From Flavobacterium sp. 5 (GTDB lineage Bacteria; Bacteroidota; Bacteroidia; Flavobacteriales; Flavobacteriaceae): 64,000 nucleotides of DNA. The DNA lies in NCBI RefSeq assembly GCF_002813295.1, contig NZ_PHUE01000001.1:3968001-4032000 (forward strand), in the 5' to 3' direction. The translations under genes were made by a program, and so were the position numbers. Below the pieces are notes generated by a model that searched no databases, had not been told where the DNA came from, and saw only the letters and a program-made list of their open reading frames with translations. Shown piece after piece: positions 36,737 through 58,000 of the stretch. Every line of letters begins with the position of its first letter. Position 1 is the stretch's first letter.

Positions 36737-36772
36737 AATCAGAATTAATTCAAAATTGATTCTGTAATTTGG
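36737..36772 (+). promoter_or_regulatory. PAP2 promoter with 11-bp direct repeats
   Basis: AATCA at 36737-36741 and ATTCA at 36748-36752 lie 11 bp apart; an ATTCT follows at 36759. The weak -7 box TAATTTGG begins at 36765, 12 bases after the second repeat. The stretch from AAAAATCAG to TTG is nearly identical to that before the LTA-synthase-like gene. No TTG is present at -33, as expected of an activated promoter. Confidence 0.5.
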
Positions 36773-36794
36773 ATTGGTTTTTAAATAATTAAAA

Positions 36795-37562
36795 ATGAAA
36801 TGTCTTAATCTCTTTGGTATATTTTTATTTGCCCAATGTGTAATAGCTCAAAACAATGTATCCGATACTATTGTTTTAAAAGATACGGTACAAAATTTAA
36901 AGTTTAATTACAAACAATTAATTATTCCGACTGTATTAATTGGTTATGGATTTATTGGTCTTAATAGTGATCAGCTCAAGAGTTTTAATTCCGAGGTTAA
37001 AGAAGAGGTTAATGAGCATATTGACGAAAAAGTTACGATTGATGATTTTATGCAATATGCTCCAGCTGCTTCGGTTTATGTTTTAAATGCTTGTGGTGAT
37101 GCGGGAAAAAATAATCTTAAAGACAGATCGATTATTTTGGCTAGTTCTTATCTTATGATGAGTGTTGCAGTTCTAGCTTTAAAAGATATTACTAAAGAAG
37201 AAAGGCCAGATGGCTCTTCCAACAATTCTTTTCCTTCGGGACATACGGCAACTGCTTTTGCTGGAGCCGAGTTTCTTTGGCAGGAATACAAAGACAAATC
37301 TATTTGGTACGGAGTAAGCGGTTATATTGTGGCTACAGCAACAGGTGTTTTTAGAGTTGTAAATAATAGGCATTGGGTTACAGATGTGGTTGCAGGAGCA
37401 GGAATTGGAATTCTAAGTACTAAGGTTGCTTATTGGATTTATCCTTATGTAAACAGAAAAATTTTTACTTCTAATAAAACTAAAGAAAATAAAGTTTCTT
37501 CGATGATTATGCCGTATTACAATGGTAAACAAATGGGATGCGGGTTAGTAATGCAATTTTAA
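36795..37562 (+). CDS. PAP2-family phosphatase
   Basis: A signal peptide ends at CVIAQ; the 255-residue protein carries the full three-part PAP2 signature: KDITKEERP near residue 130, NSFPSGHTATAFAG near 146, and RVVNNRHWVTDVVAG near 190. These give the histidine nucleophile and its partners. Such membrane-bound acid phosphatases dephosphorylate lipids like undecaprenyl diphosphate or lipid A. Its promoter shares direct repeats with three other transcription units in this block, so it may belong to their regulon. Confidence 0.85.
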   Translation: MKCLNLFGIFLFAQCVIAQNNVSDTIVLKDTVQNLKFNYKQLIIPTVLIGYGFIGLNSDQLKSFNSEVKEEVNEHIDEKVTIDDFMQYAPAASVYVLNACGDAGKNNLKDRSIILASSYLMMSVAVLALKDITKEERPDGSSNNSFPSGHTATAFAGAEFLWQEYKDKSIWYGVSGYIVATATGVFRVVNNRHWVTDVVAGAGIGILSTKVAYWIYPYVNRKIFTSNKTKENKVSSMIMPYYNGKQMGCGLVMQF

Positions 37563-37625
37563 AAGTGCATATAATTTCCTTTATTCTGTAAATGATATCA
37601 TTTTATAGGATATGATATGATGTTA

Positions 37626-37790
37626 AAACATATAAGTCATGTAAGTTTTTAATTTGGATAAAATCAAATAAAAACATAGTTCATTTAAGTAAAACCAATA
37701 GCTTTATAAAGAGAGTTACTAACTTATATCCTCTTTTAATTACTATTTGATAATCTACTTCCTTTTTTAGCTTATATGACTTATATGTTT
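37626..37790. repeat. 20-bp inverted repeats between convergent genes
   Basis: Arms 37626-37645 and 37771-37790 are inverted repeats of each other at 19 of 20 positions, separated by 125 AT-rich bases without a gene. The unit fills the gap between the convergent PAP2 and RND genes. A small non-autonomous element or a dispersed palindrome pair is possible; no target-site duplication is evident. Confidence 0.55.
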
Positions 37791-37794
37791 AAAA

Positions 37795-40700
37795 TTATAG
37801 CTCTAAATCAAAATGCATAAAGTGTTTTTCATTTTTATAAATCAAAGCCAATAAAGTTGGTAATACGATTAAGAGCAAAGGAAGAGCAATAATAAAACCT
37901 CCAATAACTGCTATCGCAAGTGGTTGATGCAATTCAGAGCCAGTTCCCATTCCAATAGCCAAAGGCAACAAGGCAATTATAGCTCCTAAAGCTGTCATTA
38001 ATTTGGGTCTCAATCGGGTGGAAATCGAATAGATTATAGATTCGTTTACATTTCTGGTCAATTTAAAGGTTTCTCTAAATTGTAAAAAGGTAAATATGGC
38101 ATTTTCGCTTATAATTCCAACAATCATAATAATTCCTGTGTAGCTTCCCACGTTTAAAGGAGTCTGAGTTATAAAAAGTAAAAGATAACTACCAGAAATT
38201 CCTAAAATCGAAATCAAAAGAATCACCAAAGCAATACGAACATCTCGGAATAGAAATAAAATCACACCAAAAACCAATAAAGAAGAACTAATTAAAATTA
38301 TCAACAATTCTTTAAAGGATTGTTGCTGTTCTTTGTAAGCTCCAGCATATTCGACATAATAACCACTTGGTAAATGAATCTCATCAGTTACCTTTTGCTG
38401 AATTTCCTGCATTACACTTCCTAAATCTCTATTGTCCAACCTCCCAGTAATCACTCCCATCATTTGTAAATTTTCACGCTGAATTTCAGCAATTCCTTTT
38501 TGAACAGAAATATCAACCAAACTGGAAATCGGTACAACTTGTCCATTAGGTAAGAACAATTGCAATTTTTTTATATCAGCCAATGTTCGGTTTTTAGAAT
38601 TTGTATAGATCAATCTTATGGGAGTTGTTTGCTCATTTTCTAACAAACTACCCACAACATTTCCTTCGAGTGCCGTTTGCATTTGAAATTGTAAATCAGT
38701 AGGTGTAATTCCGAATTGTGCCAATTTTGTATAATTGGGTTCAATATTTATTGCAGGTCCCGCCAAAACGATTCCATCAAAAACGTCTGCGGTTCCTTCT
38801 ACATTTTCAACAATTGCATTTACTTTTTTTGCTATTTTTTGTAATTCTGCCTGACTCGTTCCATAAATTTTCACTTCAATTGGCGAAACAGAACTCATCA
38901 AATCGCCAAGCATATCTCCAATTACCTGACCGAAATCAATTCGCAAAGCAGGTTGTGTAGCTTCAACTTTTTGACGAATTTCATCTATAACATCATTACT
39001 GGTTTTTGTTCTCTCTTTCTTTAATTGAATTAAATAATCACCGCTATTTGGTTCGGTAATAAAAAATCCCATTTGAGTTCCTGTTCGGCGACTATAGGCT
39101 TCCACTTCTGGAATTTGTACTATGATTTTTTCTACTTCTTTCAGCATTCTGTCGGTTTCTTCCAATGAAGTCCCTGGTGGACTCTCATAATCCAAAACAA
39201 TGCTGCCTTCATCCATTTCGGGTAAAAAACCAGTTTCAAGATTGGGAAGAATTAGTATAATAGAAAGAATCAAAATGAGACAAAATCCAATACTGATAAT
39301 GGGTTTGGCTATAAAATAAGCCACCCAATTCTGAGTTTTTACTTCATGAATTGGTTCTGTCTCTTTAGTAATAGTTGATTTTTTTTCATTTTTAGAAAGC
39401 ACTAAATAAACAACAGGTAACAATAACCAGGTAACAAAAAAAGAACATACCAAAGTAATTATCATTGTATCTGTAAGTACTTTGAAATAAGAGCCTGCCA
39501 CGCCACTCATCAATACAAAAGGAATAAAAATAACGATGGTACTTATTGATGAACCAACCATTGCCAGAAATAAATACCGAATTGCCTTTTGCAAAAGCGA
39601 AGTTGTTGGTTCTTCTGGATGTTCTTCGTGCGTTCTGTGAATTTGTTCGACAACAACAATCGCATCGTCAATAATTAAACCCAAAGCAGCAGCAATTGCT
39701 CCCAAAGTCATGATGTTAAACGTTTGCCCAGTCAGGTACAAAACAATAAGTGTTAATCCCAAAGTAACTGGGATAATAATTAAAATTGTGACACTGGCTT
39801 TTGCTGATTTCAAAAATAAAACAGCTACAATTATCGCTAATAATAACCCGATGAGTAAACTATCTGTGACACTTTTTACAGCATCATTTACAAAACTAGC
39901 TTGTTCATAATAAGGTTTAATTTTGATGGTTGACGGCAGAATTTTTTTTAAAGCTTCCACTTTTTTATTCATCTCATCGGTAAGAGTAATCAAATTCGAA
40001 TTTGGTTGTTTGATCACCGCAATTAGTATGCTTTCTTTACCATTTGCATTGACTTTTATGTATTCTTTAGCTTCCCGAATTTCAACGCTGCAAATATCTT
40101 TTAGCGTTACAATTCCTTTACCATTATTGAGAATAACAAGGTTTTCGAGTTCTTCTTTTTTATCAACCTGAGCATTGGTAATGGTGAGATACAAATAGCG
40201 ATAGTCTGATAAATACCCATTTGATTTTATAAAATTGGTTTGACTCATCACTTGAGTAATTGTATTTGGACTAATGCCAAGTGTTCTCATTTTATCAAAA
40301 TCCAAAGACAACCAATATTCCTTTTCTTTACCACCAATTATTCTAATTTCGGAAACACCGCCAATCTGAGAAAGGAATGGTTTGATAGTATAATTGGCAA
40401 TTTTCTTGAGTTCAATCGCCGACATTCCTTTTCCCTCCATAGCATAACCAATAACAGGAAGGATGGAAGGATTCATTTTTTCGACCGTAATTTGCGTATC
40501 AGGTGGAAGATCATTTTTTATTTGTTCGATTTGTTCTGCAATTCGGGTTTTTGCCAAATCAATGTCAGAATTCCAGTCCATAAAAGCCGATATTTCGCAA
40601 CTTCCTCTACTTGTTGTACTACGAATATTTTGTAAATCAGGAACTTTTTTGATCACATTTTCTAGCGGTTTGGTAACCATAATCATCATTTTGTCGACAG

Positions 40701-40857
40701 GTTGTTGTCCTGCATCGGCTATGATTTTTATTTTAGGAAAAGTTATTTCTGGAAATAAACTCGTTTGCATTTTTGAATAAGCAAAAAAACCACCCAAAAT
40801 AATTAGGAAGATAATAGTGCTTAAACCATGCTTATGTCGAACAAAAAAGTTTTTCAT
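37795..40857 (-). CDS. RND efflux pump (second, substrate unknown)
   Basis: The 1020-residue protein is an inner-membrane RND pump with two repeated halves. Its relay motif reads GLIIDDAIVVVEQIH near residue 397: the Asp pair of hydrophobe exporters, not the DFG...DGAV motif of heavy-metal pumps. The N terminus is FFVRHKHGLSTIIFLIIL, and the second half has GIISENAIFTFLQF in the corresponding helix. It is the last gene of a six-gene minus-strand operon that starts with a two-component system, suggesting signal-controlled export. Confidence 0.9.
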   Translation of the reverse strand: MKNFFVRHKHGLSTIIFLIILGGFFAYSKMQTSLFPEITFPKIKIIADAGQQPVDKMMIMVTKPLENVIKKVPDLQNIRSTTSRGSCEISAFMDWNSDIDLAKTRIAEQIEQIKNDLPPDTQITVEKMNPSILPVIGYAMEGKGMSAIELKKIANYTIKPFLSQIGGVSEIRIIGGKEKEYWLSLDFDKMRTLGISPNTITQVMSQTNFIKSNGYLSDYRYLYLTITNAQVDKKEELENLVILNNGKGIVTLKDICSVEIREAKEYIKVNANGKESILIAVIKQPNSNLITLTDEMNKKVEALKKILPSTIKIKPYYEQASFVNDAVKSVTDSLLIGLLLAIIVAVLFLKSAKASVTILIIIPVTLGLTLIVLYLTGQTFNIMTLGAIAAALGLIIDDAIVVVEQIHRTHEEHPEEPTTSLLQKAIRYLFLAMVGSSISTIVIFIPFVLMSGVAGSYFKVLTDTMIITLVCSFFVTWLLLPVVYLVLSKNEKKSTITKETEPIHEVKTQNWVAYFIAKPIISIGFCLILILSIILILPNLETGFLPEMDEGSIVLDYESPPGTSLEETDRMLKEVEKIIVQIPEVEAYSRRTGTQMGFFITEPNSGDYLIQLKKERTKTSNDVIDEIRQKVEATQPALRIDFGQVIGDMLGDLMSSVSPIEVKIYGTSQAELQKIAKKVNAIVENVEGTADVFDGIVLAGPAINIEPNYTKLAQFGITPTDLQFQMQTALEGNVVGSLLENEQTTPIRLIYTNSKNRTLADIKKLQLFLPNGQVVPISSLVDISVQKGIAEIQRENLQMMGVITGRLDNRDLGSVMQEIQQKVTDEIHLPSGYYVEYAGAYKEQQQSFKELLIILISSSLLVFGVILFLFRDVRIALVILLISILGISGSYLLLFITQTPLNVGSYTGIIMIVGIISENAIFTFLQFRETFKLTRNVNESIIYSISTRLRPKLMTALGAIIALLPLAIGMGTGSELHQPLAIAVIGGFIIALPLLLIVLPTLLALIYKNEKHFMHFDLEL

Positions 40858-40863
40858 GTATAA

Positions 40864-41790
40864 TTATTTTGCTATCACTTTAACCTGAATAGTATCTTCA
40901 ACGCCATAATTCCCAGTAAGTAAAATTTTATCATCATGAGTCAAAATTGGCGAAACAATCTCCACTCTGTCTAGAGTTTCAATTCCTTTTTTGATTGGAA
41001 TTTTTATGGCTGTCGATTCGTTGATCAATTCCATAATCCAAAAATCAGTTTCCGTTTCATCAGTCAAAACAGCAGCTTTTGGCAGCGAAATTGTTTTTGT
41101 ATTTGAACTTTTATGAATCCTAACTTTTACAATCAAATTCTCGGGTATATTTTGTTTGGCATTAATTTTTAAAACCACATTTTGGGTTTGAGACGTGGCA
41201 TCAACAGTTGGCATAAATTTTTGAACGCTTGCTTTTATTGATGAATTGTCTGGAAGCAACACTTCCAATTGGTTTCCGATAGCAATATATTTTTTTAATT
41301 CATAAGGTAAACTCAAAACTATAGCAAAGCTTTTGACATCATTTATTGTTACCAAAGCATCTCCATCCTGAACGTAATCTCCTTGCTGAACATTTACAGA
41401 AGTAACATAACCAGTTGTATTTGCTCTAACTTTTAGTGCTTCACCAAAATGTAAACTTGGGTCAATATTATTTACTGTATTTCCTAAAACTTTTGATTCT
41501 CTAGTTTTTATCGAAAATAGAACAGCTCCCTTTGAAACAAAATCATTGGTTGCAACATTTACAGAATTTAAATAACCAGTGGCGTTTGCTTTAATTACAT
41601 TTTTTACCAAATAAGTAGCAGTTGCATTCAAATCAGTATAACTAACAATTGCCGTTGTATCAATCGTAGTTAAAGTAACTGGAATCTTTTTCTCAACTTC
41701 TTTTTCGGCTTGAGGTGTTTCTTTACATCCAATAAAAAAGGGGAGTATTAGGGTTAAAAGCAATGTTTTTTTTTTCATATTATTAGTCAT
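40864..41790 (-). CDS. HlyD/MFP-type adaptor lipoprotein
   Basis: A lipobox (LPFFIGC) follows a short signal; I choose the ATG at 41790, which overlaps the end of the TolC gene (the ATG at 41778 is the alternative), giving 308 residues. The lipoyl-type half-motif NVIKANATGYLNSVNVATND and its counterpart TTGYVTSVNVQQGDYVQDG are visible, but the alpha-hairpin between them is unusually short, as in compact adaptors. It should bridge the RND pump and TolC channel. Confidence 0.85.
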   Translation of the reverse strand: MTNNMKKKTLLLTLILPFFIGCKETPQAEKEVEKKIPVTLTTIDTTAIVSYTDLNATATYLVKNVIKANATGYLNSVNVATNDFVSKGAVLFSIKTRESKVLGNTVNNIDPSLHFGEALKVRANTTGYVTSVNVQQGDYVQDGDALVTINDVKSFAIVLSLPYELKKYIAIGNQLEVLLPDNSSIKASVQKFMPTVDATSQTQNVVLKINAKQNIPENLIVKVRIHKSSNTKTISLPKAAVLTDETETDFWIMELINESTAIKIPIKKGIETLDRVEIVSPILTHDDKILLTGNYGVEDTIQVKVIAK

Positions 41791-43021
41791 TAAAACTCCA
41801 ATAATTAATTTCATTAATAATTTGAAGTTTGTTGATGTAATTTTGAGTGATAGCACTTTTAATAGAAAGTAAATTCCCAACGGCAATAATATACTCGGTG
41901 ATTTGTGCATCGCCAGTAACAAATAACTTTTTGTCGGCTTCTATTAGGGCATCAGCTATTTTGAGTTGTACTTGTAGTTGCTTTTCGACGTCATTAACTT
42001 GATTTAATTTCTGATTCAAAATCAATAGTTGTTGCCTAAATTGTTTGTTAAAATTGTTTTTGTAAGCCAAATTGGTAGCCAAAGCCGTTTCGTTTTTCTG
42101 ATGTTGCAAACTGCGTTGATTGCCATCATAAATAGGAATTGATAATCCAGCGCCAACACTGAAGCCAAAATTTTTATATGGTTGATAATAAAGACTTGAT
42201 AAATATCCCGCATCAGCAAGCAAAGAAATTGAGGGTTTGTAGGCATTGTCAATCAGTTTACTTTGGTTATCAATTTTTAGACTATCTACTTCAAATTGTT
42301 TTAAAAATATAGTTTTATCTGATGAAGTAATTGTTTTGAGTTCTACTTCAGGTTTTTTCAAATTCACAAAAGTAGTATCAGTTTCACCTGAAAGGTAGTT
42401 TAGCAAAGCTAAATCATTTTGGTATTGTTGTTTCAATTGCAACAGAGTCAATTCTTGTTGCTTTACTGCCGCATTAAAAATCAAATAATCGGTTTGTTTA
42501 TAAATGGAATTTTGTGTCAACTTTTTTAGAATAGAAGTTTCATCTTTTAAAAGCGTTGCTATTTTTTGATTGTAGTCGATTTGATCTGAAGTTCCAAAAG
42601 CAGTTATATATTGAGAAATAATTGATTTGTTTAAATCCTTTGTGGCCACTTTTTGATTTAAAACCAAAGCATCCTTTATTATTTTAAATGTTTCTGATTG
42701 TGAATTGATTTGATTTTTACTCATTATGCGCTTATTCACACCCAATAATCCCGAAATAGACTGACCATTAGTTATTGCTTCGTCATAACCAACATGATTA
42801 ATAATTGGAGCATACATAGCATTTAAATTCCCTGTAACCAATGGTTTTTGATTAGCACGAAACAACAAACTATCAATAGATGTAGCTTCGATTTGATTGT
42901 TATAATCTTTTAGTAATGGAGAATTCTTCTGTGCTTTCTCGAGGAAATAGTTTAAATTCTTTTCTTGGGAAAAGGACTTAAAAAAGCAGAGAAAAAGTAT
43001 GGTTAAAAGCCTGAATGTCAT
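41783..43021 (-). CDS. TolC-like outer-membrane channel
   Basis: The 412-residue protein has a signal peptide ending FKSFSQ and two coiled helical repeats typical of TolC: NYFLEKAQKNSPLLKDYNNQ near the start and YKNFGFSVGAGLSIPIYDG near residue 270, where a barrel strand leads into the second hairpin. It completes a pump with the two downstream genes and overlaps the adaptor start. It does not show a lipobox. Confidence 0.85.
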   Translation of the reverse strand: MTFRLLTILFLCFFKSFSQEKNLNYFLEKAQKNSPLLKDYNNQIEATSIDSLLFRANQKPLVTGNLNAMYAPIINHVGYDEAITNGQSISGLLGVNKRIMSKNQINSQSETFKIIKDALVLNQKVATKDLNKSIISQYITAFGTSDQIDYNQKIATLLKDETSILKKLTQNSIYKQTDYLIFNAAVKQQELTLLQLKQQYQNDLALLNYLSGETDTTFVNLKKPEVELKTITSSDKTIFLKQFEVDSLKIDNQSKLIDNAYKPSISLLADAGYLSSLYYQPYKNFGFSVGAGLSIPIYDGNQRSLQHQKNETALATNLAYKNNFNKQFRQQLLILNQKLNQVNDVEKQLQVQLKIADALIEADKKLFVTGDAQITEYIIAVGNLLSIKSAITQNYINKLQIINEINYWSFND

Positions 43022-43047
43022 TGTATAAAATTAATCAAAATTATAAA

Positions 43048-44070
43048 CTATTGAGCAGTATTTTCAATAACTAAAACTGCAAAAGAATTGGGCTTAATTG
43101 TAGCTCTTGGATTAGGGATTTCTACTGTTGCTTCAGGTTTTGTTCCAAATTCAGCCGTCGGCGAATACAATTGATTTGTCGTTTTATTCAAAGTAATAGT
43201 TCGTGCCCCTTTTTGTGTTGCAATAGTCTCTACAACAGAAAATTTATCGGCGCTATATTCTTTTACAACCGTAATAGTTCCTTCACCATTAGAGCTAAAA
43301 GCAAGTTTCTTTTTAGCATCAAAAGCAACACCATCACAACCATCTCCAATAGGCAAAGTCGTTATGATTTTACCATTTAAAGCATTTACAACAATCATTA
43401 ATTTATTACCACAGACAGAAAATAATCTATTTGTTTCTAAATCTAAAGCCAAACCTGATGGCTCGTCTCCTGGAGCAATACTCCATGTATTAACTACTGT
43501 TAATGTACTGGTATTTATTGTTTTTATTTGATTTTTATCTTCTATGTTTACATAAATTAACCCTTTAGTATTGGTGACTGAGAATTCCGGTTTTCCACCA
43601 AGCGGAATCGACTTTATTTCTTTATTGGTATTGGCATCAATGACTGTAGCATTTTTACTAGTTGCATTGTAGGTAAAGACTTTTTTAGAAAAAGAATCAT
43701 ATAAAATAGCGTCTGGTTTAACGCCACTAATTTTTACTTTTTCAATTAATTCAAAAGTCTTTAAATTGATTATGGTTACTGAATTGTCTTTTCCATTGCT
43801 AATAAACGCTTTATTTAAATCATTGGCAATCGCAATACCGTGTACTCCCTTAGTATCTGGAATTGTTGTAATAGTTACATCTGATTTTAAATCAATAACA
43901 TTTACAACGTTACCGTGAGAAACAAATAAATGTTGATTTACTTCGTCAACAGCAAGATAATCCCAACCTTCATTTCCAATTATATTTATTTTTTTTGAAA
44001 CTGAATAATTTTGCGAATTTGAATGTTGGATAAAAAAAACGAACAAGAATAAAAGGATAGTGTGTTTCAT
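43048..44070 (-). CDS. YncE-like beta-propeller protein
   Basis: The 340-residue exported protein (signal to FIQHSNSQ) has about seven repeats of the YVTN type: HLFVSHGNVVNVIDLKS, AFISNGKDNSVTIINLKT, VFTYNATSKNATVIDANT. These form a beta-propeller of the YncE/surface-layer class, for binding or sensing in the periplasm. It sits between the histidine kinase and the TolC gene, so it may sense or handle the substrate of the pump. No catalytic motif is seen. Confidence 0.8.
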   Translation of the reverse strand: MKHTILLFLFVFFIQHSNSQNYSVSKKINIIGNEGWDYLAVDEVNQHLFVSHGNVVNVIDLKSDVTITTIPDTKGVHGIAIANDLNKAFISNGKDNSVTIINLKTFELIEKVKISGVKPDAILYDSFSKKVFTYNATSKNATVIDANTNKEIKSIPLGGKPEFSVTNTKGLIYVNIEDKNQIKTINTSTLTVVNTWSIAPGDEPSGLALDLETNRLFSVCGNKLMIVVNALNGKIITTLPIGDGCDGVAFDAKKKLAFSSNGEGTITVVKEYSADKFSVVETIATQKGARTITLNKTTNQLYSPTAEFGTKPEATVEIPNPRATIKPNSFAVLVIENTAQ

Positions 44071-44142
44071 TTGTATTGTGTTTTATTAGATTTAAAATAC
44101 AGTAACAAATTTAGTAGTGGATTCTGTAGGAAGTTTGAATTT

Positions 44143-45405
44143 TTAAAATTTTATACTAAAAACATGAAGGTTATTGTCAAAAGCATAATTGATTTGCCAT
44201 TGGTTGAGTTCGGTTATTTTTTTTATAATGGCAAGACCAAGACCATTTCCTTGTGAGGAAGGATTTGTTTTGGAAAAGCGATTGAATAATTTGTCAATTA
44301 CCATTAGTTTTGGTTGTCCAGTGTTCAAGAATGTCAACATGTTGTCTTCTATACGAATAATGATTTTTCCGTTCATTACATTGTGACGAATGGCATTCAA
44401 AAACAAGTTATTGATTAATACTTCTGTTAAAGAAGAATTTCCAGTAATGCTAAGCTCAGTATTGAATTCAGTAACAATGCTAAGGTTTTTTGCTTTGGCT
44501 TGTTCTGTAAAAAAGTCAAGGTGCTTATTTATAAAGTCATTTAAAATTATAATGTTCTTTTCAAGATAGTTTCCATTATCAATTTTTGAAAGCAATAAAA
44601 GATTTTTGTTGAGTCTGTTAAACCTAGAGACATCATTATTTAAAGAACTTAGAATAGAAGACTGTTCTTTGCTGAGTTCAAGTTGAAGTAATGTGTCAAT
44701 TTTAGTTTGAAACAAGGCTAGCGGCGTTTGTAATTCATGTGCTGCGTTTTCTACAAATTCTCTTTGGCTCTTATAAATACTAATGTTTTTCTCTATCAAT
44801 TTAGAAAGGCTTTTGTTAAGCTGATCGAATTCATCGATTTTTGTAGAGATAAAGACAGGCGTTTTGTTTTTATCCAATTCAAAACCCTGAATTTGTTGAA
44901 GTGTATCGTAAAAAGGTTTCCAAAGTCTTTTGGATGAAATTTTAACGATGATTAAAATACCAAGCATCAGAATGATAATTATTATAAAAAAAAGTTTTGC
45001 AATACTTCTTACCAGATGTTTGTTTTTAATGATATTTATTTTAACCGTATATGTATAAGGTTTACCTTCGATAAAAATAGGACTATTAAGCTCACGAAAG
45101 GGTTGTTTTTCTTCTTCTATTTGGACATAATAGATTTTAGTAAAATAAGTATCTTTTGTAACTCTGTGTGATGGTATTAGAATTTCATTTTTGTTATATT
45201 TATTCCACAGAGAAACATCCGAAATTTTAAAAGTAGGGAGTTGGTATTTTACAAATTCCTTTTTGTGGTTTTCTATAAATTCATCTGTTTCTTCAATATA
45301 AAAATAATTGGTAATATAATAGAAAATAAGCCCTGAAATTAACAACACTATGGCTGAGAAAAGCAAGAATTGATTTGTAGTTTTTTGTAGTAATTTTTTA
45401 GTCAT
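44143..45405 (-). CDS. Sensor histidine kinase
   Basis: The 420-residue kinase has two membrane helices (about residues 13-33 and 134-156) around a periplasmic sensor of some 100 residues. The H-box is FVENAAHELQTPLALFQ, with the phospho-acceptor His near residue 223; the N-box is NNLFLNAIRHN, and the G-box SSQGNGLGLAIIKKI. Its frame overlaps the response-regulator gene by eight bases, so the two are cotranslated. The periplasmic part has no recognisable ligand-binding signature. Confidence 0.92.
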   Translation of the reverse strand: MTKKLLQKTTNQFLLFSAIVLLISGLIFYYITNYFYIEETDEFIENHKKEFVKYQLPTFKISDVSLWNKYNKNEILIPSHRVTKDTYFTKIYYVQIEEEKQPFRELNSPIFIEGKPYTYTVKINIIKNKHLVRSIAKLFFIIIIILMLGILIIVKISSKRLWKPFYDTLQQIQGFELDKNKTPVFISTKIDEFDQLNKSLSKLIEKNISIYKSQREFVENAAHELQTPLALFQTKIDTLLQLELSKEQSSILSSLNNDVSRFNRLNKNLLLLSKIDNGNYLEKNIIILNDFINKHLDFFTEQAKAKNLSIVTEFNTELSITGNSSLTEVLINNLFLNAIRHNVMNGKIIIRIEDNMLTFLNTGQPKLMVIDKLFNRFSKTNPSSQGNGLGLAIIKKITELNQWQINYAFDNNLHVFSIKF

Positions 45406-46075
45406 CTTCCCATTTATATCCTAAACCATAAATTGTCTTGATGTAGTCACCGCTTCCCGCAGTATTCAGTTTCTTTTTTAAATTTTTGATATGTGCATAT
45501 ATAAAATCGTGATTGTCGAGCATATCAGCCATATCGCCCGAAAGATGTTCTGCAATAGCTCCTTTTGATAAAACTTTATTATTGTTGCCAATTAAAAACA
45601 GCAGTAAATCTATTTCTTTTTTGGTTAAATCTAGTTTTTTGTTATTGATAGTTACTGTTTTTGATAAAATATCAATATTGATTTCATTGAAAATAACATT
45701 GTTGTTTCCTTTGAAATTCTTTCTTCGAATAAGTGCCTGCATTCGAACTAAGAGTTCTGATAGATGAAATGGTTTAGTTAGAAAATCATCTGCACCGAGA
45801 TTGAAACCCTCAATACGACTATCAAGAGTTTCTTTTGCAGATATAATGATGACACCTTCTGTTTTGTTTTTGTTTTTTAATTCCTTTAAAATATCGAAAC
45901 CATCACCATCAGGCAGCATTAAGTCTAATAATATACAATCGTAGTTGTAGTTATCTATTTTATCAAGTGCCAGTGCATAATTTTCAGCTGTTTCACATTG
46001 AATGCCGTTAGTCTTAAAGTAGTCTTTAATACTTTTTGCAATTTCTTGCTCATCTTCTATGATTAAAATTTTCAT
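45398..46075 (-). CDS. OmpR/PhoB-family response regulator
   Basis: The 225-residue protein has a receiver domain with the acceptor Asp in CILLDLMLPDGDGF near residue 51 and the switch Lys in DDFLTKPFHLSELL near 101, and a winged-helix effector domain ending IKTIYGLGYKWE. OmpR-type regulators bind direct repeats with an 11-bp period, exactly what is found upstream of this gene and three neighbouring units. It is the first gene of the six-gene operon. Confidence 0.94.
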   Translation of the reverse strand: MKILIIEDEQEIAKSIKDYFKTNGIQCETAENYALALDKIDNYNYDCILLDLMLPDGDGFDILKELKNKNKTEGVIIISAKETLDSRIEGFNLGADDFLTKPFHLSELLVRMQALIRRKNFKGNNNVIFNEINIDILSKTVTINNKKLDLTKKEIDLLLFLIGNNNKVLSKGAIAEHLSGDMADMLDNHDFIYAHIKNLKKKLNTAGSGDYIKTIYGLGYKWEDD

Positions 46076-46078
46076 AGT

Positions 46079-46114
46079 GCAATTTAATGATTCAAATTTG
46101 AATGAAATTTGAAT
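46079..46114 (-). promoter_or_regulatory. Promoter of the two-component operon with direct repeats
   Basis: On the minus strand ATTCA (46114-46110), ATTCA (46103-46099) and AATCA (46092-46088) recur with an 11-bp period. A weak box TAAATTGC follows, 12 bases after the second repeat, and the ATG at 46075 is close enough that the mRNA may be leaderless. Autoregulation by the response regulator is likely. Confidence 0.5.
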
Positions 46115-46198
46115 TTTTTATTTTAAACTGTAAAATAATTAGTTTTAATTACAACTTCTTTCTTTTGAATTTGTTTGTTAAGGAATAATCAATTTATA

Positions 46199-46236
46199 TT
46201 TATTCAGGATTTATTCAGATTTAAAATTTAGTTTTG
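46199..46236 (+). promoter_or_regulatory. Promoter of the TonB-type barrel gene with direct repeats
   Basis: TTTATTCAG at 46199-46207 and again at 46210-46218 are exact direct repeats at an 11-bp period. TAGTTTTG (46229-46236) lies 11 bases after the second ATTCA. No TTG is present at -33, as expected for an activator-dependent promoter. Confidence 0.6.
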
Positions 46237-46252
46237 CGTCATAAACTAAATT

Positions 46253-48706
46253 ATGCGTTACTTTTTTTTTATTTCTATACTTTTTTTATCCCTTATTTCA
46301 ACAGCTCAAACTACCAAAAATAAAGGAAGTATTACTGCCAAGGTTATCGATTCACAAACAAGAGTTCCAATCGAAATGGCTATTGTGTCTATTTATAAGG
46401 CAGAGGAAAACAAACCTTTTAATGGAGTAACTACAGATCAAAAAGGGCATTTTACTTTTAATAATCTATCCGAAGGGACTTATCGAATTGGTATTGAATT
46501 TATTAGTTACAAAGTGTTTTTTATAGAAAAGGTTACTATTAATACTTCATCCAATAATTTAAATTTTGGAGAGGTTTTACTTGTTCCGATTGCTAATGAG
46601 TTAAGTGGTGTAACAGTTACTTCAAAAGCTGCTAGTGTACAAAGTAAGATAGATAAATTGGTTTATAATCCAGTTAATGACCTCAGTAGTCAGGGTGGAG
46701 TAGCCACTGATATATTGAAAAATGTACCAATGGTTAGTGTTGATATTGATGGAAAAGTTGAATTACAAGGAAGTCCTAATGTTCGGTTTTTAATTAATGG
46801 AAAACCTTCGAGTATTTTTGGAGCCAGTGTTTCGGATGCTTTACAGTCTATACCTGCCAGCCAGATTAAAAATATAGAAGTAATCACAAGCCCAGGAGCT
46901 AAATATGATGCTGCAGGAACAGGAGGAATTATCAATATTATCTTAAAAGAGAATAAGGTTCAGGGAATCAACAGTAGTGTTAATTTGTCGCTTGGCACCC
47001 GTTTAGAAAATGGTAGTTTTAATTTAAATGCTAAGAAAGGAAATTTTGGCTCGGGTATTTATTTTGGTGGCAACAAACAATTAAATACGATAACAAGAAA
47101 TAGTAGCGATCGTACCTCATATAATCCGACTCGCGACACGATTAGCAGTCTTCATCAAAATGGTAAAAACCCTTTTACAAGAAGTAGTTATCAGACTGGA
47201 TTAAATTTAAATTGGAGTATAACTGAAAAGGATGAATTATCAGCGACTTTAGGATTTAATCATTTCGAAAATAATTCAACTGGAACTACTTTACAGAATC
47301 AGCAATCATATTTGACAGATGGTTCTCTATTGTCAATACTAAATAGTGAAAGAAAATCAGCAGGAAGTTTTAAAAATGATGCAACAGATTGGAGTATTTC
47401 GTATAAGAAAACATTTGATAAGAAGGATCAAGAATTGAATGTATTAGTTACTTCTAGCTCTGGAAAAAGCATCAATAATAGTTCTCAGGAAACCATTATT
47501 CAAGAAGATAATTCAGTATCAGGAAATCGAAATTACAATCCTGGGAAAAATCATGAACTTAACCTTTCCGTTGATTTTACCTATCCATTAGCTGAGGGTT
47601 TTACTTTTGAAACCGGAGCGAAATCAACTTTTGAAAATATTGAAAGTCAGGTGGTTTCAGATACTTTGTCAAATGGAAATGTTTATATAAATGATTTAGG
47701 ACAGAGTTACAATTTTATATACAAGAGAAATATTTATGCTGTGTATTTTTCAAGTTCTTATACCTTGTTTAATGGTTTTTTAGAAGGACAAGCTGGCTTG
47801 CGTTACGAAAAAACCAATACTACAGCTGATTTTGCTGGAGTAAATATTCCTGATTACGATACTTTTGCTCCTTCTTTTGTTATGCAACATAAAATTAGCG
47901 ATAGCCAGTCTATTAAGTTTTCTTATACCTTTCGTATTGAGAGACCCGATTTTGAAGACCTAAATCCTTTTTTTAATATAAGTGATCCGCATAATATTAG
48001 CACTGGAAACCCTTTTTTGAAAACAGAGAAAGGCAATAGATATGAGTTGGGGTATAGTAAAAATTTCGATAACAATGCCAATTTCTATTTTTCGGGTTAT
48101 TATCGTTATAATACTGAAGATATTCAAAACCTTACTACTTTTTATAATGAGTTTGGTGTAGGGAAAACTACTTATACCGATGTTACTTTGACAAGACGTT
48201 ATAATATTGGCTCTGAAACTACCTATGGTGCTAGTCTTTTTGGTTCGCTTCCTGTGAATAAAAAGGGTACTATTAAAGGTACATTTGACTTTGGTGAAAG
48301 GACAAATTCGACTCCAGGCTTTGCGAGTGTTAACAGCTTTATTTATAGAGCAAATCTAAATTTGTCTTATAAATTTAGTCCAGATATGATGGGAGAAATA
48401 GTCGGAAACTATCGTTCTACTCAAAAAAGCATTCAAGGTGAACGTCCTGCATCATTCTTTTACAACATTGCATTTAGAAAACAATTTTTAAATAAAAATG
48501 CAAGTGTAGGAATAACGATGGCAAATCCTTTTAATAACTACTTGAATCAGCGATCAAGTAGTTATGGAGACAGTTTTTATCAAGTAAACAATAAAGATAT
48601 ACCAGTACAATCTTTCGGTATTTCTCTTAGTTATAAATTTGGTAAACTTGATTTCAAAAAAGGAGAATCAGAGAATCATGAAGGTCCTCTTCAGCCTGAA
48701 ATTTAA
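46253..48706 (+). CDS. TonB-type outer-membrane receptor (OMP beta-barrel family)
   Basis: A signal ending LISTAQ leads into a carboxypeptidase-regulatory-like beta-sandwich (SITAKVIDSQTRVPIEMAIV, residues about 25-115), a plug region (TDILKNVPMVSVDIDGKVEL, then IEVITSPGAKYDAAGTGG) and a long beta-barrel to residue 817. The final strand is FGISLSYKFGKLDF. It is divergent from the two-component operon and probably controlled by it. It imports an unknown ligand or serves as an outer-membrane maintenance factor; the ligand is not deducible. Confidence 0.88.
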   Translation: MRYFFFISILFLSLISTAQTTKNKGSITAKVIDSQTRVPIEMAIVSIYKAEENKPFNGVTTDQKGHFTFNNLSEGTYRIGIEFISYKVFFIEKVTINTSSNNLNFGEVLLVPIANELSGVTVTSKAASVQSKIDKLVYNPVNDLSSQGGVATDILKNVPMVSVDIDGKVELQGSPNVRFLINGKPSSIFGASVSDALQSIPASQIKNIEVITSPGAKYDAAGTGGIINIILKENKVQGINSSVNLSLGTRLENGSFNLNAKKGNFGSGIYFGGNKQLNTITRNSSDRTSYNPTRDTISSLHQNGKNPFTRSSYQTGLNLNWSITEKDELSATLGFNHFENNSTGTTLQNQQSYLTDGSLLSILNSERKSAGSFKNDATDWSISYKKTFDKKDQELNVLVTSSSGKSINNSSQETIIQEDNSVSGNRNYNPGKNHELNLSVDFTYPLAEGFTFETGAKSTFENIESQVVSDTLSNGNVYINDLGQSYNFIYKRNIYAVYFSSSYTLFNGFLEGQAGLRYEKTNTTADFAGVNIPDYDTFAPSFVMQHKISDSQSIKFSYTFRIERPDFEDLNPFFNISDPHNISTGNPFLKTEKGNRYELGYSKNFDNNANFYFSGYYRYNTEDIQNLTTFYNEFGVGKTTYTDVTLTRRYNIGSETTYGASLFGSLPVNKKGTIKGTFDFGERTNSTPGFASVNSFIYRANLNLSYKFSPDMMGEIVGNYRSTQKSIQGERPASFFYNIAFRKQFLNKNASVGITMANPFNNYLNQRSSSYGDSFYQVNNKDIPVQSFGISLSYKFGKLDFKKGESENHEGPLQPEI

Positions 48707-48723
48707 AGAGTTTCTATTAAAAA

Positions 48724-48758
48724 AATCAGAATTAATTCAAAGTTGTAGTATAAATTTG
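48724..48758 (+). promoter_or_regulatory. Promoter of the LTA-synthase-like gene with direct repeats
   Basis: AATCA (48724-48728), six bases, ATTCA (48735-48739), eleven bases, TAAATTTG (48751-48758). This is the same geometry as at the TonB-type barrel gene and nearly the same sequence as at the PAP2 gene. No TTG lies at -33. Confidence 0.6.
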
Positions 48759-48803: not shown

Positions 48804-50729
48804 ATGAAAAAAATTCAGTTCTTAAAACCGCTTATAAATTTTCTTCTAATTGGTTTAATAATTCTTAACGTTAGTCGATTTCTTCTTTTTTTACTTTTTA
48901 AAACCCGTATCGTTGAGACCCAAGATTATGGCTTGCTTTTTCCTATTGGGTTACGAATAGATCTTATCATTTTATGTTATCTTCTGTTTTTGCCTTTGGT
49001 TTTAATTACTTTAATACCAGATTCTTTACTGAAGAAAATTCAAGGCTTTTTTACTGTTTATTTTATCTTATTTCTAAGCCTTATTTTATTTATGGAATTG
49101 TCAACTCTCGATTTTATTAAAGAGTATGACACTAGACCTAATAAATTATTTATTGACTATCTGATTTATCCGAAGGAAGTTTTAGGAACTTTATTGAAAA
49201 GTTATCTGGTATCAATTATAATTACTACAGTAGTTATGTCTGGGTTTATTTTCAGTCTAATACGATATAGAAAGCAGCTTTTTGGAATACAAATTTCAGG
49301 GTACAAAACAAAATTGATAGTGTTTCCTTTTGTTGCATTTTTCGTGTTTTTTGGCGCAAGGTCAAGTCTTACTTCAAAACGACCTATTAATGCTAGTATA
49401 GCTGTTTTTTCTACAGATCACCTTACCAATTCTCTAGGATTGAATTCATTTTACACGGTTGCTTTTGCTTTTTATTCAATGAAAAATGAAAAAAATGCAG
49501 AGAAGATGTATGGAAAAATGGATTATGCTGAAGCTATTTCAAGAGTGAAAAAATACATGAATGTAAGACCAGATGAATTTTCAAATGATTCTATTCCATT
49601 TTTGCACACTCAAAAATCAGATACTGTTATAGACAGACCTTACAATGTTGTAATCATTCTTGAAGAAAGTTTAGGTTCAGAATTTGTAGGTTCGCTTGGA
49701 GGATTACCATTGACACCAGAATTTGATAAACTAACAAAAGAAGGAACTTTATTTACCGATTTATATTCAACCGGTACCCGAAGCGTGCGAGGTATTGAAG
49801 CTGTTGTTACGGGCTTTCTTCCTTCTCCATCAGAAAGTGTAGTAAAATTAAATAATTCGCAATCTAATTTCTACACTATTGCGGCCTTATTGAAAGAAAA
49901 GGGATATGACACTAGTTTTATTTATGGTGGAATGGCCAATTTTGATAATATGGGGTCTTTTTTTAGTGGTAATGGTTTTGATAAAATTATTGATGAAGAT
50001 GATTTTGATTCAGATAGAAGCGTTTTTCACGGAACATGGGGTTGGTCTGATGAAGATGTGATGGCAAAAGCTAATAATTATTTTAAAAGTCTTGGGAAAA
50101 AACCTTTTGTTTCTTTAATGTTTTCTTCTTCCAATCACGAACCTTTTGAATTTCCTGATGGAAAAATTACGCTTTATGATAAGAAAAAAAATACCGTAAA
50201 TAATGCTATCAAATATGCAGATTACTCAATTGGTAAATTCTTTGAATTAGCTAAAAAAGAAGCGTATTATAAAAACACTATTTTCTTGGTGATTGCCGAC
50301 CATAATACCAGAACTTATGGGAAACATCTTGTGCCAATACATAAATTTCATATTCCAGCTCTGATTATTGGACCTGGAGTTTCAAAAGGAGTTAGATACG
50401 ATAAATTATGCAGTCAAATTGATATACAACCAACTTTGTTGAGTAAAATTGGAATGGATGTAAAAACACCAATGGCAGGAAGAAATCTCTTTAATTTTCC
50501 CGATGCGATTGAAGGACGAGCCATAATGCAATTTAATGATATCAATGCATTTCGTGTTGGAAATGAAGTAGTGATTATGCAACCTAATAAAAAAGCATTG
50601 CAATTTCATGTCGAAAAGGACACTATTTTTACACCGAAAAAACTTAATGAAGATCTAGCCAAAGATGCATTAGCTCATGTGATTTCGGCATTCTATTTGT
50701 ACAATAATCAAAAGTATAAGCTTAAATAA
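48804..50729 (+). CDS. LTA-synthase-like sulfatase-superfamily membrane enzyme
   Basis: The 641-residue protein has about five N-terminal membrane helices and an extracytoplasmic alkaline-phosphatase-fold domain: NVVIILEESLGSEFVGSLGG near residue 277 with a metal-binding Glu, the nucleophile Thr in LYSTGTRSVRGIEAV, and VIADHNTRTYG with the Asp-His metal ligands near residue 497. Gram-negative members of this group are thought to transfer phospho-headgroups, such as phosphoethanolamine or glycerol phosphate, to envelope glycans or lipid A. Its promoter carries the shared direct repeats. Confidence 0.85.
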   Translation: MKKIQFLKPLINFLLIGLIILNVSRFLLFLLFKTRIVETQDYGLLFPIGLRIDLIILCYLLFLPLVLITLIPDSLLKKIQGFFTVYFILFLSLILFMELSTLDFIKEYDTRPNKLFIDYLIYPKEVLGTLLKSYLVSIIITTVVMSGFIFSLIRYRKQLFGIQISGYKTKLIVFPFVAFFVFFGARSSLTSKRPINASIAVFSTDHLTNSLGLNSFYTVAFAFYSMKNEKNAEKMYGKMDYAEAISRVKKYMNVRPDEFSNDSIPFLHTQKSDTVIDRPYNVVIILEESLGSEFVGSLGGLPLTPEFDKLTKEGTLFTDLYSTGTRSVRGIEAVVTGFLPSPSESVVKLNNSQSNFYTIAALLKEKGYDTSFIYGGMANFDNMGSFFSGNGFDKIIDEDDFDSDRSVFHGTWGWSDEDVMAKANNYFKSLGKKPFVSLMFSSSNHEPFEFPDGKITLYDKKKNTVNNAIKYADYSIGKFFELAKKEAYYKNTIFLVIADHNTRTYGKHLVPIHKFHIPALIIGPGVSKGVRYDKLCSQIDIQPTLLSKIGMDVKTPMAGRNLFNFPDAIEGRAIMQFNDINAFRVGNEVVIMQPNKKALQFHVEKDTIFTPKKLNEDLAKDALAHVISAFYLYNNQKYKLK

Positions 50730-54523: not shown

Positions 54524-54936
54524 ATCTTGAAATAACAATCCTGAAAAAAATATTTTATTTACATATAAAATAAATATTTTTTCATTCCCTTAACCGTCAA
54601 ACTAAATTTTAAAAGTATTAAAATTACAAGGCTGAGCCATTCAATCACGAAGTTTTTAATATCAATTTTAGTATCAAGTGCTAATATTTTTTCTAAAAGC
54701 TCTTAATTCAGACAATCGATTGCATGATTTTTTATATAAAATCATTTGAAAATGAATTTTACTTCAAAATTGTTGAAATTTAGTTTTGTTTAGTTTTTTT
54801 GGCAAAAGACTAACTTATTAGCAAAACATTATCAAATTGAAAATAATAAACTATTAATAGTTTATTATTTTATCAAAAAAAGTACATTATATATTTTTAT
54901 TAATAGGTATTTTTTAGATATTCGTAAAAAATATTT

Positions 54937-55050: not shown

Positions 55051-58000
55051 ATGACTAACTATTTTGTTGCAAGCAAATCAAAGCATTTTAAGTGTTTTGT
55101 TTTTTTGATCTTAATGTTTGTGGTATCACTTCAATCGAGTGCACAAACAACAGTTACAGGAATAATATCAGATATGCATGGTCCTGTTCCTGGAGCTAAT
55201 GTGAATTTAAAAGGTTCTAATAGCGGAGTAAGTACCGACTATGACGGTAAATATTCAATTAATAATGTTCCTTCAAACGGTGTACTTGTTTTTAGTTTTT
55301 TAGGATATAAAAACAAAGAGGTATCAGTAAGTGGTCGTAATACAATAAATGTGGTTCTCGAAGAAGAATCAAATTCTTTAAAAGAAATTGTTGTAATCGG
55401 ATATGGAGCTCAACGAAAGGAAGCAGTAACTGGATCGGTATCGTCGATTAGAGGTGCTGATATTAGAGAAGTACCTTCGGCAAACGTTACACAGGCGCTA
55501 CAAGGAAGATTAGCAGGTGTGCAGATATCGCAAACGTCTACAAAACCAGGTTCTACTATGCAAATACGAGTTCGTGGAACGCGCTCTCTTACTGCAGGAA
55601 ATGATCCATTAGTAGTATTAGATGGTATACCTTTTTCTGGAACTTTAGCCGATATTAGTCCTGAAAATATTAAAAGTATTGATATTCTAAAAGATGCATC
55701 TGCTACAGCAATATATGGTTCACGTGGAGCTAATGGAGTTATTTTAGTTTCAAGCAACAGAGGAACCAAAGGGCAAAAGGTTGCAGTGGCTTATAATACG
55801 TACACAGGTTTGAAAACGGCAGTGAAGTATCCAATGATGGAGGGACCTAAATATGCTGAATTTCGTAAATATGCAGGAAAGAACCTTGTGAATGGTGCAG
55901 ACGAGTCTGATGATGTAAATACTGATTGGCAAGATTTATTTTATAGAGATGCAATTGTTACGAATCATGACGTTGCCGTTACTGGTGGAACTGAAAATGG
56001 TAATTATAGTGTAGGTGTAAACTATTACAAAGATCAAGCAGTGATGCCAGGTTCAGAATATAATCGTTACGCTATACGTGCTGCGATAGATCAAGAGTTA
56101 GGTATTTTACGCTTAGGTTTTTCTACAAATAGTAATTTTAGTATTACAGATGGTGCTGGATTAGGAATGTACGGAGTATTGAGCATGTCTCCAATCGCTA
56201 ATCCTTACAATGAAGATGGTTCACAAAAGAGAACGGTTAAAATGCCACAAGATGAACAATGGGTTTATACAAGAGAAAGTATGAACAATTTAGGGGATAA
56301 ATGGGTGGATAGAAGTAAAGCTTTTGGATCTTATAACTCACTTTATGCAGAATTGAAAATTCCAGCAGTAGATGGTTTAAAAGCACGCGTTAACTTAGGA
56401 GGGAATTACCGTAATAATAATTCAGGTACTTATACAGGAATTGGGGTTTTTAGTTCGGATCCTAAAAATCCAAATAATGCTTCGGTAGGAAATTCATTGT
56501 CAACTAGTTGGACAGTTGAAAGTTTGTTAACATATGATCATACATTTGCAAAAAAGCATAAAGTAAATGCTCTTGCAATGTATTCTTCTGCACAGGATAG
56601 TTATAATAGCTCTTTAATTTCAAGAAAAAATATTGCAGGTGATAATTTTCAATATTTTAATTTAGCACAAACTTCGACAGGAAGTAGCGACGATATATCA
56701 ATTAAAAGTGAAGATCAAACTTATACGCAAAGTGGATTACTTTCTTATATGGCTCGTGCGATGTACTCTTATGATGATCGTTATATGGTAAGTGCTACAG
56801 TTCGTTCAGATGCTTCATCACGTTTGGCTCCTTCTAATCAATGGCATACTTATCCTGCATTTTCTGCTGGTTGGAATATCAGTAAAGAAGGATTCATGCA
56901 AAATGTCAAATGGATTAATTCATTAAAATTACGTGGTGGTTATGGAGAAACTTCAAATCAGTCTGTTGCTCCTTATGCAACGCTTGGAGTTTTGAGCACT
57001 AGACCATATAATTTTGGAAGTACTAATGCGATAGGAAATTATGTGACTACGCTTCCTAATTCTAATTTGGGATGGGAATATTCAATTACTACTAATTTAG
57101 GGTTAGATTTTTCAATTTTAAACAATCGTTTGTCTGGTACGGCTGAATACTACACTACAGATACAAAAGACTTACTTTTAAGTGTTGGTCTTCCTGTAAC
57201 TTCAGGTGTTAATTCATATGTTGGAAACGTTGGATCAACTCAAAATAAAGGTTGGGAACTTTCATTAAATGGCGTTATTTTAGATAATTACAATGGATGG
57301 ACTTGGGATGCCGGAGTTAATTTTTATGGTAATAAAAATAAACTTGTATCTCTTGCTTCTGGGCGAATGGAAGACAAAGACAATTGGTGGTTTGTTGGAA
57401 AACCTCTTAACGTAATTTATGATTATGAAAAGCTTGGTCTATATCAAACCGATGCTGAAGCCAAATTGTATGAAGGTGCTGGAGGTGCTGCTGGTATGAT
57501 TAAAGTTAAATACACAGGAGATTATAATGCTGATGGTACGCCAAAAAGATTGATTGGGGCTGATGACAGACAAGTTCTAAATGCTGATCCAGATTTTCAA
57601 GGTGGTTTTAATACTCATGTTGGTTATAAAGGATTTGATTTAAGTATAGTTGGGCTTTTTCAAAGTGGTGGAATTTTAAACAGTACTCTTTATGGTTCTA
57701 ACGGATATTTAAACATAAATGATGGACGTAGAGGACAAATTGATGTTGATTACTGGACACCAACTAATACAGATGCGCAATTTCCTAAACCAGGTGGGCC
57801 AACAGAAAGTAATAATCCAAAATATGGTTCAACTCTAGGGTATTTTGATGGTTCATTTGTTAAATTGAAAACAATTACTTTAGGGTATAGTCTTAATAAA
57901 GAATGGATTAAAACTGCTGGTATGGAAAAATTAAAACTGTATTGCACTATTCAAAATCCATGGGTAATTTATTCTCCTTATCACAAATTATCAGGATTGG

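Follow-up and report, generated by a model that had tools for sequence, protein, structure and literature searches.

Does the direct repeat that recurs at promoters around a two-component system of Flavobacterium sp. 5 constitute an operator, and is it read by the response regulator (RR) encoded among them? The question arises from a 64,000-nucleotide stretch of the genome (NZ_PHUE01000001.1, positions 3,968,001 to 4,032,000), referred to here as the window, in which paired repeats lie upstream of the RR gene, a PAP2 phosphatase-like gene, an outer membrane beta-barrel gene, a lipoteichoic acid (LTA)-synthase-like gene, and the genes that follow the sensor kinase gene. Comparison with related loci, a whole-genome scan for the operator combined with a -7 box, and co-occurrence with the RR in the genus, rather than the pattern in the window alone, establish that the repeats are a real, conserved operator of a coherent regulon. 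That the RR binds these repeats and activates its own gene together with the envelope genes is the best explanation and, judged from the sequence evidence, a very probable one.

Operator sites in the window

The original prediction placed the pattern A(A/T)TCA-N6-ATTCA at four promoters, those of the PAP2 gene, the RR operon, the barrel gene and the LTA-synthase-like gene. All four sites are present as written (Table 1), with 11-12 nt between the end of the second repeat and a -7-type box, and the nine-base TTTATTCAG is exactly repeated at the barrel gene. The half sites are real, but the first reads AATCA rather than ATTCA at two of the four promoters, and the conserved unit is about TTCARAWTT-NM-TTCARAATT. 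The -7-type boxes are likewise present but imperfect at the RR and PAP2 promoters. The set was also incomplete, as a fifth site heads the propeller-OEP-MFP-RND genes. Counted in the window alone, the pattern proves little, because 1.77 +/- 1.58 matches are expected where 5 occur, and at least as many arose in 6 of 100 shuffles; the excess becomes significant once relatives are compared. With one mismatch allowed, the pattern was near chance (21 matches against 19.8 expected) and was rejected.

Conservation of the operator in related loci

A 21-bp matrix was built from 43 training sites in 54 non-redundant RR promoters of relatives, to which the window contributed solely the background base composition. 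The related loci were those of the best 80 of 90 confirmed relatives of the kinase, 1.608 Mb in total, mostly from Flavobacterium and also from Pustulibacterium, Yeosuana, Pedobacter, and metagenome-assembled genomes of Bacteroidales, Chlorobiota and Melioribacter. At 42 of the 43 training sites the TTCA lies 37-40 nt ahead of the RR ATG, the remaining one being at 51, and seven of the 11 RR promoters outside the training set have a site scoring at least 12 within 300 bp. This matrix ranks the window promoters first to fifth in the order RR, barrel, PAP2, propeller and LTA-synthase-like, a prediction independent of the window sites. Chance expectation, taken from a first-order Markov model of the window, was 0.06, 0.38 and 1.1 matches per 64 kb at scores of at least 16, 14 and 12, respectively. 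The LTA-synthase-like site is borderline on score alone.

In the 80 related loci, 220 matches scored at least 16, where about 1.6 were expected under the same model. Of these, 75 lie at RR genes (partly the 43 training sites) and 145 elsewhere, and a gene starts within 300 bp downstream of 209 of the 220. Most of the 79 loci viewed have TTCA-N7-TTCA and, after it, a TAAATTTG-like box immediately ahead of the RR ATG. Gene families were counted with second copies and paralogues included; left out were kinase hits, hits covering <30% of the query or starting past its residue 60, and genes represented by <200 bases in the retrieved sequence. A site scoring at least 12 was found within 300 bp upstream of 75 of 79 RR genes (at least 55% identical), 39 of 42 LTA-synthase-like genes (36/38 distant, 3/4 close), 29 of 53 PAP2 genes (23/44 close, 6/9 distant) and 28 of 52 barrel genes (2/2 close, 26/50 distant). 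By the same measure there were none at genes expected to lie inside operons (RND 0/17, OEP 0/9, MFP 0/2, PROP 0/1; 0/29 together), and a site of this score was found at none of three RRs that were <55% identical. With twenty column-permuted matrices, the mean per family lay between 0 and 0.08 genes.

Orthologous promoters, to which the original prediction had pointed as a check, do conserve the repeats. At locus L209 (G135), where the RR is 88% identical by tblastn, the sites of the RR, LTA-synthase-like, barrel and PAP2 genes score 22.5, 21.1, 18.2 and 17.9, and they are kept while their flanks have diverged. The PAP2 site of the window is kept in both L209 and L141, again with diverged flanking bases. 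In the RR relatives L060 and L039 (45-48% identity), two cases compared by eye, the repeat is about TTCCnAA with its period unchanged, and the recognition region reads YSQIKNLRKKL versus YAHIKNLKKKL; across the 79 RRs from the related loci, conservation is at least 95% at 10 of the 11 positions of this region. These two cases suggest, by eye, that the operator repeat and the recognition region of the regulator change together.

A paralogous block and the genome scan

The genome, one contig of 4,973,516 bases (4.97 Mb), contains a paralogous block about 0.3 Mb away at G000:C1:4324883-4337162 (L141 6883-19162). This second block encodes barrel, PAP2, RND, MFP, OEP, propeller, PepSY-like, kinase (63%), RR (90%) and LTA-synthase-like (81%) proteins; the PepSY-like gene, located behind the kinase gene, is additional to the window copy. 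Gene order also differs, in that the barrel gene adjoins PAP2 and the LTA-synthase-like gene is divergent from the RR gene. The sites of the second block score 29.4 (RR), 17.9 (PAP2), 16.7 (PepSY-like), 15.4 (LTA-synthase-like) and 12.1 (barrel), the last being by itself at chance level.

A 34-bp composite of operator plus -7 box, scanned with up to two mismatches, had 10 matches in the genome, of which 9 fall inside the two blocks, and the reversed control had 1. The barrel site of the window is the sole zero-mismatch match to this composite. For the operator without the box, the three zero-mismatch matches (both RR sites and the window barrel site) are all inside the two blocks. The original prediction had named genomic frequency as a test, and on this point it holds for the operator joined to its -7 box but not for the operator alone, which at two mismatches gave 217 matches versus 129 reversed and is informative solely at zero or one mismatch. 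Other patterns were discarded. The first operator pattern with two mismatches (81 matches versus 26 reversed) was too loose, and TTCA-N7-TTCA-N(11-16)-TAnnTTTG had 6 matches with just one from the reported set, because the other sites deviate at one or more letters.

The genome also holds a third, distant kinase gene (27%) at G000:C1:1548639-1549847. It is flanked by matches to TTCA-N7-TTCA plus a -7 box at G000:C1:1548514-1548547 and 1551086-1551119, one of them about 90 nt behind the kinase gene, and these repeats read on as TTCAT, not TTCAR.

Co-occurrence of sites and regulator in the genus

The genus panel consisted of 150 genomes, 26 of which have the RR at E <= 1e-75. There were 97 composite matches in the 127 Mb of genomes with the RR (reversed control 10) and 62 in the 408 Mb without it (reversed control 36). 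At least one match was found in 26/26 genomes with the RR versus 48/124 without, at least two in 22/26 versus 13/124, and at least three in 16/26 versus 1/124 (Fisher p 6e-14, ignoring relatedness). In the genomes with the RR, an RR is no more than 20 kb away from 69 of the 92 matches listed (97 in all).

Composite matches of about TTCAGAATTGATTCAGAATTATCAAATCAATTT are common to four genus genomes (G125:C17:104144, G065:C1:3375776, G015:C9:356560 and G008:C1:682514), three of which lack the RR at the cut-off; this is perhaps the site of another regulator. Seven near-identical matches in G047:C1, from another family of the order, probably belong to a repeated element.

Promoter geometry and the leader of the regulator mRNA

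When 38 RR and 86 other non-redundant promoters were aligned, the -7 region lay at a nearly constant distance from the operator, and one T of the -7 box was found in 86/86 non-RR and 37/38 RR promoters. By the numbering used for F. johnsoniae, in which the -7 box extends from -12 to -5 (PMC6847099), the operator spans about -39 to -19. The fixed phase between operator and -7 region suggests contact with the polymerase, and hence activation. The original prediction had taken the absence of TTG at -33 as the sign of an activator; this is not diagnostic, and the argument is weak because the -33 motif is described as 'much less evident' in F. johnsoniae promoters overall (PMC6847099). The fixed -7 spacing is the better evidence of activation.

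The predicted transcription start of the RR gene in the window coincides with the ATG (46075) or lies no more than 1 nt from it, so that its mRNA would be leaderless. Among the 75 related promoters with a site, the predicted RR leader measures -1 to +2 nt at 58 and 82-146 nt at 14, and is negative at 3; the long or negative values are perhaps owed to start-codon choice. Median predicted leaders, with starts taken from simple open reading frames (ORFs), are 16 nt for LTA-synthase-like, 22 nt for barrel, 27 nt for other and 83 nt for PAP2 genes. A leaderless RR mRNA would be unusual: 87% of predicted leaders are >10 nt in F. johnsoniae (PMC6847099), and about 3.7% of leaders are <10 nt in Bacteroides thetaiotaomicron (PMC7366714).

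A site behind the kinase gene

The position of the fifth site recurs in the related loci. In 64 of the 80, a site scoring at least 12 has its start between -2 and +73 nt relative to the last kinase codon, and 55 of these 64 sites are at +5 to +8, which is 2-5 nt beyond the stop codon. The gene that follows varies: barrel in 25 loci, PepSY-like in 13, LTA-synthase-like in 4, PAP2 in 3, another gene in 17 and none in 2. Among the remaining 16 loci, 7 have a site scoring at least 12 at about +108 to +120, three (L134, L108 and L126) have a weaker site of 7.3-7.8, and six have nothing notable. The genes downstream of sites in the related loci include 21 PepSY-like proteins that form one BLAST cluster, with PF11396 found in both members run against Pfam and in the second-block copy. 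Other genes with a site encode members of another PAP2 family; a diacylglycerol kinase (DAGK, L063) and an Omp85-type protein follow a site in one or two loci.

Genes of the block

Table 1. Operator sites and genes of the block, in window coordinates; scores are those of the 21-bp matrix, with the rank in the window in brackets.
Feature	Position	Strand	Sequence or family evidence	Score (rank)
PAP2 operator	36737..36757	+	AATCAGAATTAATTCA; two half sites at 11 bp; third, weak half site ATTCT at 36759; imperfect -7-like box at about 36764-36771	19.7 (3)
RR operator	46114-46094	-	repeats ATTCAAATTTCATTCA at 46114-46099; start region 46079..46114; imperfect -7-like box at 46087-46079 (-)	22.9 (1)
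Barrel operator	46202..46222	+	ATTCAGGATTTATTCA; -7 box TAGTTTTG at 46229-46236	19.9 (2)
LTA-synthase-like operator	48724..48744	+	AATCAGAATTAATTCA; -7 box TAAATTTG at 48751-48758	13.8 (5)
Fifth operator, directly behind kinase stop codon	44140-44120	-	-7 box TAAATTTG at 44113-44106	16.7 (4)
PAP2 phosphatase-like gene	36795..37562	+	PF01569, E 4.5e-18	
Beta-propeller, OEP, MFP and RND (AcrB-type) genes	37795..44070	-	Pfam/NCBIfam	
Sensor histidine kinase, NCBIfam PorY family	44143..45405	-	NF052314, 416.1 bits (cut-off 350); PF00512, PF02518	
Response regulator, OmpR/PhoB type	45398..46075	-	PF00072, E 3e-28; PF00486, E 4.9e-16	
Outer membrane beta-barrel, CarboxypepD_reg + TonB plug	46253..48706	+	PF14905, E 8.6e-79; PF07715, E 4.8e-6	
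LTA-synthase / phosphoglycerol-transferase-like membrane sulfatase	48804..50729	+	PF00884, E 2.5e-49	

The RR has the domain architecture of the OmpR/PhoB family, a receiver and a Trans_reg_C winged helix, with PF00072 and PF00486 both above cut-off. Phosphoglycerol transferase I and lipoteichoic acid synthase are the top two NCBIfam models for the LTA-synthase-like protein, which scores far under the cut-off of each. In many related loci the RR-kinase pair is found close to PAP2, LTA-synthase-like, barrel or efflux genes. The propeller, OEP, MFP and RND genes of the window presumably form one operon downstream of the fifth site. As called mechanically, the ORF of the MFP gene shares 140 bases (41783-41922) with the OEP gene, and its true start is probably at a later start codon. 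The sixth-ranked match in the window (54751-54771, score 12.9) has TAGTTTTG downstream and, about 300 bp further on at 55051, a SusC-like gene; it is at chance level, as 1.1 matches of at least 12 are expected in 64 kb.

Proposed mechanism and alternatives

The original prediction attributed the repeats to an OmpR/PhoB-type regulator, and control by such a protein through 11-bp direct repeats remains the best account. The kinase, encoded behind the RR, would phosphorylate the RR, which, as a dimer, would occupy a pair of half sites (about TTCARAWTT) arranged head to tail at 11-bp spacing, roughly from -39 to -19, and would activate the RNA polymerase, with the -7 box recognized by the sigma factor at a fixed distance. 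It would activate its own gene from the leaderless start, and also the genes behind the kinase and the PAP2, beta-barrel and LTA-synthase-like genes. PAP2, a sulfatase-fold transferase, PepSY-like proteins, the barrel and RND export suggest that the envelope is remodelled. The output of the regulon is probably envelope-lipid remodelling plus export, in answer to envelope stress.

Several observations weigh against this account. Of the 220 strong matches, just 58 precede a -7 box close to consensus (5 or 6 of 6 points), so the box is often imperfect, though its position is fixed. No site scoring at least 12 lies within 300 bp upstream of 4/79 RR genes (L119, L125, L127 and L139), 3/42 LTA-synthase-like, 24/53 PAP2 and 24/52 barrel homologues, and the related loci do not count as independent. 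With one mismatch, the operator has 18 matches in the genome, 4 in the two blocks and 14 outside, and the LTA-synthase-like site of the second block is absent from the 10 composite matches. In the genus, genomes without the RR have 0.152 composite matches per Mb, above the reversed rate of 0.088 per Mb, and three genomes with relatives of the kinase (G040, E 1.0e-97; G042, 1.2e-67; G010, 4.4e-62) have no composite match.

The position of the operator at -39 to -19 would be compatible with a repressor too. The RR might bind and repress by covering this region, which overlaps the polymerase site, until the signal lifts repression, and the absence of TTG at -33, not being diagnostic, does not speak for activation instead. 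A fixed -7 spacing across several gene families is, however, expected of an activator that touches sigma and is unneeded for a repressor. The example of PhoB and PmrA favours activation. We consider repression unlikely.

Alternatively, another regulator, from the third two-component system of the genome or an orphan factor, may own the sites, with the RR merely one of its targets. The matches on either side of the kinase paralogue and the 48 of 124 genomes that hold at least one composite match without the RR are in keeping with this. But multiple matches track the RR over the 150 genomes, the repeat appears to shift with the RR subfamily, and the sites at the paralogue have TTCAT, not TTCAR, which leaves ownership by another factor very improbable. 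Chance in A+T-rich DNA, or functionless descent of duplicated promoters, is hardly credible: the two blocks are paralogues and the original pattern is near chance in the window, yet non-RR sites were found with an RR-trained matrix, permuted matrices recover almost nothing, sites stay while flanks diverge, and the excess of strong matches, the clustering of 9 of 10 composite matches and the genus co-occurrence all contradict it.

Relation to known systems

The system for which we favour activation by the RR is similar to PmrA/PmrB (BasR/BasS). The PmrA model is second in the NCBIfam list of the RR, and BasR (8jo2) is its second-best solved structure. PmrA binds 11-bp direct repeats with the half site TTAA and has a sulfatase-fold transferase among its targets. 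Here, in contrast, the half site is TTCA, the target is LtaS/phosphoglycerol-transferase-like where that of PmrA is EptA, and, unlike that of PmrA, the RR mRNA is predicted to be leaderless. The RR scores 152.8 bits in the PmrA equivalog model NF007928, below its cut-off of 330. The operator is nearly the same as the cre/blr-tag of CreB, TTCACnnnnnnTTCAC, with TTCA repeats 11 bp apart (PMC3660660). Its spacing agrees with that tag but its sequence does not, since TTCA is followed by C in the cre tag and by A or G in both half sites of 43/43 training sites; the RR scores 124.6 bits in the CreB model NF008296, against a cut-off of 273. Judged by curated cut-offs, the RR is not a PmrA or a CreB, and the kinase qualifies for the PorY family.

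ColR of Pseudomonas, an RR of the OmpR subfamily, is reported to activate a PAP2 gene and dgkA (PMC2689224); here PAP2 genes, and in L063 the DAGK gene, carry the site. Compared by eye, the ColR consensus (T/C)(T/C)NA(C/G)NN(T/C)TTTTT(C/G)AC (PMC2689224) contains one weak repeat, whereas the operator described here has two similar TTCARAWTT units. In Xanthomonas, raxRH is described as adjoining eptA, lpxE and arnT (PMC8306577). PorY kinases are reported from type IX secretion in Porphyromonas gingivalis (PMC4800418), and the kinase of the window passes the PorY model, but the RR beside it is of the OmpR type and has operators of its own. Annotation of the targets, with ten proteins taken through Pfam and no search made for PorX, revealed no secretion gene, and the family name PorY alone does not mean control of secretion.

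In the open-access papers searched, by title and start of abstract, we saw no description of this operator or regulon and no Bacteroidota RR with this operator. A two-component system of Riemerella is described as an OmpR/BaeS pair (PMC5399024), and a mutation of the OmpR family is mentioned in F. johnsoniae (PMC10197871).

This kind of control is known, and the regulon is a well-supported new example of it. Tentatively, and with judgement nearly balanced, the system could be a widespread Bacteroidota counterpart of PmrAB/ColRS in which a phase-fixed operator replaces the -33 element, the RR mRNA is leaderless and autoregulated, and a portable operator-promoter 2-5 nt behind the kinase stop codon drives a varying cargo (barrel, PepSY-like, LTA-synthase-like, PAP2 or efflux genes). 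A role in the periplasm as feedback partner of the kinase is possible for the PepSY-like protein. If activation by the RR is correct, a large group of environmental bacteria would have a testable regulon, a matrix with which to scan for it and a predicted leaderless regulator mRNA, and the arrangement would suggest how one signal couples envelope remodelling with efflux.

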